A DNA stretch of 64,000 bases from Malus domestica. Lineage: Eukaryota; Streptophyta; Magnoliopsida; Rosales; Rosaceae. The DNA is taken from the NCBI RefSeq assembly GCF_042453785.1, contig NC_091675.1:1624501-1688500 (forward strand), in the 5' to 3' direction. Positions within the stretch are counted from its first letter, which is position 1; every line of letters starts with the position of its first letter. The translations under genes and the position numbers were made by a program. This document shows, one piece after another, positions 59,122 through 62,788 of the stretch. A model generated the notes under the pieces. It had not been told where the DNA came from. It saw nothing but the letters and a program-made list of their open reading frames with translations, and searched no databases.

Positions 59122-61407
59122 AAGAATATGATTCTCTCCTCTTGTTTATTTCCTTATCTTTTTTCATTTTTTATTTGAACGATCACGATTAAACCATATC
59201 AATATTTTATATTAATTTTTTATAAAAATAAAATAAAATAAAAAATATAAAAGGAGGAGATGAAAAAAAACGAAGAGATAATCCTAGTCTAAATTTATAT
59301 GGATATTATTGTTGATGGGAACCTGAGTTGTTTATCATGACCATAATAAGTGAATCCTATTTGATTCAAAGGAAGAAAAAAGTCACGAAATCAAGGATTC
59401 GTACTATTTAGACGTAAGATTCGTGGAATTTGATGACTTACGTGGAAAGGTGACCGCCATTTTGAAATATGGAAAAGCTGATAGGTGCTGCTGATAAGAT
59501 CGGTCGAAGACTTTTATCATCTTGTTTTTGAACTTTTATTATTTAAATTTTATGATGGAATTTTAAATTTTTTTATAATATCAAAACAGATTGTTTAATA
59601 CGGGAAGTTCTACAGCCACCCGTGATCTACATCATACAATTTATCTTGTATATGTGATAGTCTTAAAAATTCGTCAAACATTAAGAGACATGTTATATGA
59701 GAAATGTTAAGGAGGGGAGAGAATTATGCTTCATATTATATGAGAAGTGTTAAGAATATTCTTTTAAAATGATATTCTATATAATTCTTTATTGCCTCAC
59801 AATTTAAAGTTAATTTCTACGTAAATATTATAAAATATTAAGCAAAAAATAAGAGATTAGAAAGTTCACGTAGAATCACACATTTACAAAAATATCCTTT
59901 ACATTTCTCATATTATGTCGTACATAAACAAAAAAATACTATTGGATGAGCTTAAATAATAATGATAAAGCCACGTAGCAAGCCTGGAAGAAAATCACAC
60001 ATTTCACTAATCAGCTTGATGCACCTTAATTCAACATTTGACTAATGACTTTTTTTTGGTTATTGTTTGATACAAATGAGTTTATAATAATAAAAATACC
60101 AACGTGAAATATGTAGGTTTATTTGTTAATTATTTGAGGGGTGCTTTCAGGGTGATCGAATGGAAATTGAAACAAAGGTGTTGATTAAGTTGGAGTCTCT
60201 AGCTAATGACGGTGTGTGTGAGTGGGATTAACAACGCCTCATGTGGTACCAAGACTACGGAGGAAATGATATTTTTCAGGCAACACAGTAACAGTTTTAT
60301 TACCATTATAAGAAAAGGTATAAACTTCAAATAGAGTATCTTGAGTTAAATCTGAATGATCCTTAAACAAAATAGATTTCAATACAAAAAACAAGGTCAA
60401 CTTGGCCAATCTCACCATATCGGCAGATCTTTGGGTATGACTAGCATAATAACACATCAAGCACTCTAAAGCCAAATGTACTTCAATCTTGGCAATTAGA
60501 AAATCAATCACATCATAACCCGCCTTATGAGAGACTTTGCGTACAAAATTGCCAGCAAAACTAGTAAAAGAACACTATTTACATACAAGCAACGCCAACT
60601 TAAAAAAGAAACTGCTAAAGAAACAACTAGTGACGTTTACAATAATGACTCTACATTCAAAACCACAAACAAAAGCATCGATTATATTACGATAAATCGT
60701 ACCAACGTCACCATGAGACATGAAAGAAAGATTCAAGCTCAAAAAGGCAAATCTAACATGGATGAAAGCAGCACTATAATCTAGAAAACCCACATCATTA
60801 AAACTCAACTTCATCTCTTGCCAAACCCACACTACCCAAAACAACCACAAACGGAAGATTTTGAAGGAAAATTGGATTGAAAAGGACAAAAAAAATAATT
60901 GATAGAGAACTCAAATATAAGCAAGCTTAGGCTAAGACTTAATCACCACAAAAGGGACTAATAAAATTAGTATGTCATCAATGTGTGATAACAAAAAAAA
61001 ATCACTTAAATGTTTCGTTCTTTGTCACATGGTTAACGCTCACAGCACAACAATGGTTATACACTATATGTTTGGTGGATGGAAGATTCCCCTGATTTCC
61101 TTAGGGATATCTTGTAATTTGATTATGTATTGACATTTGAGAATAGATCCTTTCATCGTGCGGGACGGTCTTTTTCTTTAGATCGGATTGAAATTTCCGG
61201 CAAGATTTTATCGAGGTCCAATATAAACACTATTCTTAGTTTGTTGTCAATTTGTATTTGTATTACTTTGTTTGTAATGAATATCAAATATTGTATTTCT
61301 CTAAAAAAAAAATTAAAAAAAGTCTCGGCCTTTCTATCTTCTGGATAGTATGTTTGACAAAGTAATCAATCACATAATTGATGCTGACCAAAAAAACAAA
61401 AAAAAAA
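59122..61407. other. AT-rich intergenic region
   Basis: No gene supported. ATATGAGAA(G/A)TGTTAAG occurs twice near 59694-59756 and inverted at about 59902-59920 (CTTTACATTTCTCATATTATG), so a decayed MITE is possible. Minus-strand frames at 60239-60889 are AT-driven and match nothing recognised. Confidence 0.4.
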
Positions 61408-61650
61408 GGGTTGTGATTTTCACACACCCTTAACTACTTTTCCCACACCCCTCCCTATTTTTTAGTACTTAATTGGTATCCTACTAATTATTCTTCCATA
61501 TATACCCTCTCCCTATTTAATCTTTCATTAATTACCATAAAAAAGTAGGAAGGGTATATATGGAAGATTAAATAGTAGGAAACCAATTAACTATTAAAAA
61601 ATAGGGAGGGTGTGGGAAAAGTAGTTAAGGGTGTGTGAAAATCACAACCC
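61408..61650. mobile_element. 243-bp nearly perfect palindromic (foldback) MITE
   Basis: Both arms start GGGTTGTGATTTTCACACAC and stay nearly identical for about 58 bases, with weaker pairing to the centre (about 120 bases per arm), so the whole element can fold into one hairpin. It lies between A runs, so no target duplication can be defined. Confidence 0.88.
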
Positions 61651-61742
61651 AAAAAAAATCATGTCGTTGATGAGCCGCCGCAAGAGAGAGAAAAATGTAC
61701 AATCCCTTTCTTTTTGTTTCGTTGTTTTTGAAATATAATTTA

Positions 61743-62779
61743 GGATAAATTACATAATAACTCTTCAGGTTTGAGATTTATTACAATCTCATACAATATC
61801 TTTAAAACATTTCACTTTCATAGCTCACGTACTATTTTATTTCAAAATAATACATCCGTTACATTTTTCATCAATAGATCCGTTAAGTGCTGACGTGGCT
61901 GCCAAATGTATGCCATGTGGCAAAATATATATATATATATATATATATAAACACACATACACACACGTAGAACCCATCCCTTTCTCTGTTTCAATCGACC
62001 GCCATGTGTGCACCAGTACTCTGGCGCCCCCAAATCACACCCTCTCTTTCTCTCTAATCCCTAAACCCAGAAATTGCGCACCAAACTTCATCGTCCCTGA
62101 TCATCTTCTCCTTAAAAAGCACAAACAAAAATCCAGGAAACTCTCTCTATATATCTCTAGATTTCCGACGATGCCGAGGCGAAAACGAGGAGTTATAGCC
62201 TAGGACTGGGAGCTGGTGGTCCTCCAGAAGAAGCCCAATAAGGCCAGCGCCCTCCGCGACCCGAAGGCGGTGAACCACGCGATGCGGTTGGGTGCGCTGG
62301 TCTAGACCATCAAGAAATTCGACGGGGGCTCGAACAAGAAGGCAGGGACAATGGTTAGCGTGAAGAAGCTCGAGGAGGTGGGTGAAGGCGAAGGGGGAGG
62401 ATCTGGTGCGGAGGATCGGGGAGGCGGTGAGGTGGAGTATGAGGTTGAGAGAGGTGAGGAGAGGTTGAATCTAGAGATTGTCGAAGAAAGGGGTTGCGGG
62501 GAAGGGGAAAGGGAAGGGATGGGGTTCCACGTGTGTTTTTTTTATTTAAAATTTTTTAAATTTAGAAGATTAAGGTTTTTTTTTAAATCAATTTTTTTTT
62601 GCCACGTGGCATACATTTGGCAGCCACGTTAGCACTTAATGGATTAATGAATGGAAAATGTAACAGATATATTATTTTGAAATAAAATAGTATGTGGGGT
62701 ATGAAAGTGAAATGTTTTAAAGATGTTGTATGAGTTTGTAATAGATATCAAACTTGAAAGGCTACTATGTAATTTACCT
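61743..62779 (+). mobile_element. Pack-MULE carrying an MBF1c gene fragment
   Basis: Inverted ends of about 180 bp: 61743-61925 starts GGATAAATTACATAATAACT; 62597-62779 ends AGTAGCC/GGCTACTATGTAATTTACCT in the opposite sense. Shared inner blocks include TTAAAACATTTCACTTTCAT, ATTTTATTTCAAAATAATA and CGTGGCTGCCAAATGTATGCC. An exact 9-bp target duplication TATAATTTA flanks it (61734-61742, 62780-62788). The interior holds a host gene fragment rather than transposase, which defines a Pack-MULE. An AT/AC microsatellite (61927-61966) lies just inside the left end. Confidence 0.93.
62171..62377 (+). pseudogene. MBF1C: Captured N-terminal half of multiprotein bridging factor 1 (MBF1c type)
   Basis: Read from the ATG at 62171 the codons give MPRRKRGVIA, a stop, DWELVVLQKKPNKASALRDP, KAVNHAMRLGALV, a stop, TIKKFDGGSNKKAG and VSVKKLEE. 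This matches the MBF1 N-terminal domain in order and spacing; MPSRYPGAVTQDWEPVVL is the MBF1c start as I recall it. Both stops (TAG at 62201-62203 and 62303-62305) sit at conserved glutamines (residues 11 and 45), so each is CAG to TAG. The captured piece includes the 5' leader (about 61970-62170, with CTCTCTTTCTCTCTAATCCC). It ends after about residue 69, so the helix-turn-helix domain is absent. MBF1c is a stress-response transcriptional coactivator; this copy cannot make it. Confidence 0.9.
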
Positions 62780-62788
62780 TATAATTTA

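Follow-up and report, generated by a model that had tools for sequence, protein, structure and literature searches.

Mutator-like elements (MULEs) have target duplications (TSDs) of 9–11 bp and terminal inverted repeats (TIRs) that are typically 100–500 bp long (PMC3310237). The Pack-MULEs of rice are non-autonomous MULEs that carry fragments of host genes, and one third of them are multicopy with distinct TSDs (PMC8277862). In Oryza, 5%–10% of the putative genes derived from MULEs use two or more parents (PMC4858842). The nearest described case that was found is the PM-ZIBP family of tomato, in which a fragment of one gene (encoding a putative zinc-ion binding protein) is present at several loci; the elements in the first rows of Table 5 of that report are 944–1372 bp long, with TSDs of 9–10 bp and an outer TIR identity of 87%–94% (PMC3310237). 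In the open-licence literature nothing was found that pairs a Pack-MULE with MBF1 and, judged by the titles listed, there was no work on apple Pack-MULEs, on MULE gene capture in Malus or on capture of MBF1c. A Rosaceae survey (PMC11197308) has the term “Pack-MULE” only once, within the reference list.

The window is a stretch of 64,000 nucleotides from apple (Malus domestica), C15:1624501-1688500 of a 651-Mb assembly with 19 contigs. A Mutator-like element is situated at window positions 61743–62779. The explanation that we consider very probable is that of a Pack-MULE with chimeric captured cargo, which was inserted at four sites in the genome, has decayed, and most likely has no host function.

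Ends and target duplication

A sequence-only reading of this DNA had described an exact 9-bp target duplication and inverted ends of about 180 bp, and both are borne out. The copy at this locus is flanked on both sides by TATAATTTA, and an alignment of the left end with the reverse complement of the right end displays 24 differences in 183 sites (87%–88% identity). The BLAST alignment of the two ends gives 217 bits; the best inverted repeat found in 200 dinucleotide shuffles of the element gave 27 bits. Going by its ends and duplications, the element is a non-autonomous MULE. The two longest open reading frames in it, 61895–62203 (102 codons) and 62351–62632 (93 codons), have zero Pfam matches at E-values up to 1, and the element shows no transposase of its own. 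Table 1 lists the features. By eye, a MITE-like element with inverted repeats, some 250 bp long, is seen at window positions 61407–61653, upstream of the left TSD by about 80 bp.

Table 1. Features of the element and its target site, in window positions.
Feature	Position	Strand	Evidence
Left TSD, TATAATTTA	61734..61742	.	9/9 identical with 62780-62788
Left TIR, remnant of a repeat 373–434 bp long in the sister copies	61743..61925	+	88.4% over 181 bp against the right end
TA-repeat and remnant of a longer subterminal repeat	61926..61978	+	Alignment with the three sisters
Junction of internal deletion (354–369 bp), window copy only	61977..61982	.	Global alignments; block kept in 3/3 sisters
Cargo without assigned source, common to all four copies	61982..62070	+	Interior probe, 7/7 candidates scored
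MBF1c 5′ leader, begins inside the parent's TATA box	62071..62170	+	85.4% to M02a over 62071-62159
MBF1c coding fragment, codons 1–69 of 144	62171..62378	+	M02a DNA and protein match
TAG replacing CAG, codon 11	62201..62203	+	All four copies (alignment site 31)
Second TAG, codon 45	62303..62305	+	Window copy, not in the sisters
GAGGAGG at the join, part of both MBF1c and the antisense Dabb gene	62372..62378	+	Read off the sequences
Dabb-domain (stress-responsive A/B barrel) gene fragment	62372..62459	-	96.6% over 88 bp to L058 2688-2775 (C15:17265187-17265274)
Subterminal part; in the sisters within the 373–434 bp inverted ends	62460..62596	-	Sister alignment
Right TIR	62597..62779	-	Pairs with the left TIR
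Right TSD, TATAATTTA	62780..62788	.	9/9 identical with 61734-61742

The MBF1c fragment and its parent

The 144 amino acid MBF1c protein of chromosome 2 matches window positions 62171–62389 with 79% identity (E-value = 6.6e-28), with two TAG codons inside the match. This confirms the MBF1 similarity that had been read at 62171–62377, and together with the ends and the TSD it supports the view of a Pack-MULE carrying a 5′ fragment of MBF1c. Three full MBF1c genes were detected in the genome: M02a and M02b on C2, separated by about 9 kb, and M15 on C15. All are open and uninterrupted over 143–144 codons. Alignment to these genes, which had been proposed as a way to find the parent, shows M02a to be the nearest, with a nt identity of 90.8% over 62141–62378. 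The M02a protein displays the Pfam domains MBF1 (aa positions 11–79) and HTH_3 (89–139); the element holds most of the MBF1 N-terminal domain and none of the helix-turn-helix HTH_3. M02a and M15 are both near aldehyde dehydrogenase exons, as expected for duplicated chromosome segments.

The fragment had been described as the leader and first half of the gene, with 61970 as the start of the stretch to be aligned. Only the last 100 bp of that leader are MBF1c sequence: BLAST comparison with the M02a, M02b and M15 loci places the start at about 62071, and the rest of the proposed leader is other DNA. BLAST reveals no match to the segment at 61982–62070 in the M02a, M02b and M15 loci that were compared, and an MBF1 origin of this segment is thus unsupported. 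When used as a genome-wide probe it is found near-whole only in four copies of the element, together with three partial matches of 43–51 bp (all seven candidates scored). An open reading frame by a 43-bp match to this cargo (L080, C13:24749655 region) is ATP synthase alpha/beta N-terminal-like, with a Pfam E-value of 0.015 that is below the curated cut-off.

In a first tree the four copies group together (92/93) and are joined to M02a (85/86), with no branch at the program's strong-support mark. In a second tree, which includes older MBF1 fragments of the genome, they group at 97/94 and are sister to M02a (92/88). An AU test gave p-AU = 0.13 each for M02b or M15 as the parent, so that neither is rejected. 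The M02a lineage of MBF1c is most likely the source of the captured sequence. At coding sites 108 and 178 all four copies differ from each of the three MBF1c genes; a T at coding site 209 of the copies is accounted for by the join described below.

Because the TAG at codon 11 is present in all four copies, this stop was probably already in their ancestor and the fragment would have been broken before it spread, although four separate changes are also possible. For the same reason a decoy MBF1 protein is unlikely. The MBF1 frame has sustained further changes: the copy on C17 (E17) has a 1-bp deletion and the copy on C16 (E16) has an extra TGA.

The Dabb fragment and other cargo

The cargo does not stem from one gene, as had been assumed, but joins MBF1c to a fragment of a Dabb gene, and the sister copies add a piece of a third open reading frame. 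The MBF1c part stops at 62378 and overlaps by 7 bp with the Dabb sequence, which starts at 62372. The source open reading frame (L058) matches Pfam Dabb with an E-value of 9.5e-26. The seven-base GAGGAGG overlap is compatible with template switching as the mechanism of joining. Template switching has been discussed for transposons in animals, and it has been proposed that its role in Pack-MULEs be tested (PMC8277862).

All three sisters have the Dabb fragment twice, once per inverted end and in opposite orientation. They also carry a 71–73 bp piece that matches a pair of open reading frames on C4 and C12 (in the C17 copy, at 94.4% and 88.7%). Searches with part of the C12 open reading frame gave no match in Pfam or in PDB sequences, and those with the frame on C4 gave none in Pfam or NCBIfam; this pair may be similar to a plant RNA helicase in its N-terminal part.

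Left limit of the fragment and the heat-shock elements of the parent

Similarity to M02a ends on the left at −137 to −133 across the four copies, at the TATAAA that starts at −136. Three sequences in M02a, which overlap one another and start at −170, −165 and −160, match a three-unit heat-shock element with one mismatch each. M15 has a perfect match at −132 and one-mismatch matches at −142, −137 and −127; at the same stringency M02b has no match within 600 bp upstream. There are no heat-shock element matches in the four elements. Shuffles average 0.05 matches per 300-bp upstream stretch and 0.37 per window copy, so the zero count in the elements is unremarkable alone and the weight is on the parent's matches lying outside of the captured part. 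Because the similarity begins at the TATA box and the M02a matches are further upstream, the capture appears to have left likely heat-responsive sites behind. With the heat-shock element matches outside of the capture boundary, the element is unlikely to be transcribed in a heat-responsive manner from the parent's promoter. More generally, a captured “leader” should not be presumed to carry its promoter.

Four copies and a private deletion

A 96-base interior probe (61980–62075) detects four near-full copies, the one in the window and one each on C16, C17 and C5 (all seven candidates scored). A separate genome search recovers the identical four, each with most of the interior. The sister copies are 1,418 bp (C17), 1,400 bp (C16) and 1,473 bp (C5) in length, with inverted ends that pair over stretches of 414, 373 and 434 bp at 80%–89% identity. 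All four cargo copies have exact 9-bp TSDs (9/9 in each) and the target sequences differ. On the fetched strand those of the sisters are TTTTTTTTT (C17), AAAGTAAAA (C16) and TAATTTTTT (C5), of which the C17 duplication consists of nine T and is weak evidence taken alone.

Whole-element K2P distances for the six pairs are 0.113–0.149. The tree of the four copies is star-like, with branches among copies of 0.003–0.006 and a branch below them of 0.027 that is shorter than the tips (0.046–0.078). The short stem and the short inner branches read as a single capture that was followed soon after by spread. The four copies, at these distances and with this tree shape, lead to the rejection of a recent single-copy capture. 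In the captured coding part the copies diverge by 0.108–0.144, the same order as M02a versus M15 (0.103). As a rough guide this points to the element having arisen long before the cultivated species did, with the proviso that methylation-driven decay would make the element seem older than its real age. With such an origin, every cultivar would be expected to carry the insertion.

The window copy lacks a block next to position 61979 that amounts to 354 bp when aligned with the C17 copy, 361 bp with the C16 copy and 334 + 35 bp with the C5 copy. A further 22 bp, present in all three sisters, is missing from its left end. Since the block is kept in the three sisters, and its outer part still has a counterpart in the right end of the window copy, that copy is read as a deletion derivative from which the block was lost.

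The terminus family

The ends of the element are GGGTAAATTACATAGTAGCCCC ends. A genome-wide search for a 31-base terminus pattern that allowed up to 3 mismatches yields 1,241 hits (618 + 623); the reversed pattern yields zero hits. Twenty-one family loci were examined: the window copy, its three sisters, and 17 more that were chosen among the matches of a genome search in which 40 of 2,103 candidates were scored. The ends can be paired in 19 of the 21, with no pair for L063 and L072. TSDs in the paired loci match at 9/9 in 15 and at 8/9 in the remaining four; random pairs at the same tolerance gave 2 in 2000 at 9/9 and 27 in 2000 at 8/9 or better.

Three other loci in this genome (C7:26139xxx, C10:3650xxx and C6:10164xxx) have at least one matching family end each and, unlike the element, show no MBF1 match among those listed in the protein search. 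The loci on C7 and C10 carry the third open reading frame piece near the ends and the locus on C6 carries Dabb-like sequence, and for this reason pieces seem to be exchanged within the terminus family. In the C6 region (L059, C6:10161500-10167000), family ends and rearranged Dabb-like fragments are found beside an open reading frame with a lactate/malate dehydrogenase domain.

PF10551 transposase matches number 151 in the genome among those listed (150 of 482 candidates scored). A weak check by eye of the first 100 of the 1,241 termini and the listed PF10551 matches revealed no autonomous element between paired termini.

Older MBF1 fragments in a different repeat

The MBF1c protein also matches 16 further sites in the genome (e.g. 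C8:4581304 and C12:21599658) as N-terminal fragments, 15 of them with stop codons. This count is derived from 34 protein-match rows, less the three genes, the four copies (five rows), nine rows that look like exons (residues 5–49, 6–49 or 103–141) and one unclear row (C9:33930718, residues 7–58). Nine of the 16 were compared at the DNA level, two of these being near-identical neighbours on C12: L041 (C17), L042 and L044 (C8), L047 (C13), L048 (C5), L049 (C9), L051 (C4), and L053 and L054 (C12). They span coding nt 43–50 to 198–209 with 71%–79% identity. The nine loci lie in a mosaic repeat that differs from the Pack-MULE, and within flanks of about 1.5 kb they show no inverted ends; L048 has a family end nearby that does not enclose the MBF1 fragment.

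It is unlikely that the older fragments are members of the Pack-MULE family. They form a separate tree group (100/100), their similarity begins at coding nt 43–50 and not in the leader, and all nine lack an AAT codon that is also absent from M15 and is present in the four Pack copies, M02a and M02b. An AU test of a single clade of Pack copies and older fragments did not reject it (p = 0.084).

The right limits of the two kinds of fragment nearly coincide (coding nt 198–211), which would point to a capture hotspot. We regard it as distinctly improbable that the 5′ half of MBF1c was captured twice at a shared hotspot and that small RNAs from these sequences form one transposon-borne silencing circuit. 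If true, such a circuit would link a Dabb stress gene with a coactivator of the heat-stress response.

Possible effects on host genes

An improbable reading is that the element yields small RNAs which act on MBF1c or on the Dabb gene. The longer sisters, with sense and antisense Dabb in their opposite ends, could form a hairpin if read through, and small RNAs of rice Pack-MULEs and genic MULEs have been reported (PMC4858842, PMC8277862). The window copy has 67 21-mers in common with M02a, with a longest exact run of 63 nt, but the number drops to 39 in the C17 copy, 23 in C16 and 15 in C5. In addition, the MBF1 part is outside of the inverted repeats except for a few bases at the Dabb join, and the left Dabb arm is gone from the window copy.

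That the locus is a processed or segmental MBF1c duplicate hit by unrelated repeats, with no MULE capture, is highly improbable. The MBF1c genes are open without a break over 143–144 codons, so the absence of introns in the fragment is uninformative; however, the same chimeric interior and ends recur in four copies with their own TSDs and differing flanks, and the MBF1c fragment terminates at a join with another gene. It is scarcely credible that a chimeric peptide encoded by the two open reading frames acts on the product of the parent gene, for although frames of 102 and 93 codons are present they match no Pfam domain, and the MBF1 frame is interrupted by the stop at codon 11 in all copies, again at codon 45 in the window copy, and by the deletion in E17 and the extra TGA in E16. 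The element is taken as a silent relic, and it gives no indication of a functional product.

Discussion

The Pack-MULE reading may be put together as follows. A MULE transposase supplied in trans would recognise the ends of the non-autonomous element, whose interior would have been filled with copies of host-gene pieces, from a Dabb gene, from MBF1c and, in the ancestor, from a third open reading frame. The filling was probably by repair synthesis or by template switching at short microhomology. The chimera appears to stem from a single capture, with the M02a lineage as the most likely source of MBF1c, and to have inserted soon after at four sites, probably with the internal stop already in place; the copies then would have decayed, and the window copy would later have shed about 360 bp. 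The locus is a clean case of the shuffling of gene fragments by MULEs, in which the sequence reveals the probable parents, the breakpoints and their microhomology, the copies, and a deletion that came later.

The element belongs to a known class, the Pack-MULEs, and illustrates it clearly. Its target duplications are within the size range of MULEs, as are the inverted ends of 183 bp in the window copy and 373–434 bp in the sisters. It carries host-gene cargo with identifiable parents (MBF1c, with M02a nearest, and a Dabb gene), and this cargo is found at four loci with four TSDs, as in multicopy Pack-MULEs. It resembles the Pack-MULEs of rice in being a non-autonomous MULE with host-gene fragments; the cargo and the genome differ. 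With the PM-ZIBP family of tomato it shares the presence of one gene fragment at several loci. Some PM-ZIBP copies have inner and outer TIRs (PMC3310237), whereas the sisters of the apple element have one long TIR at each end, with the Dabb sequence extending into it.
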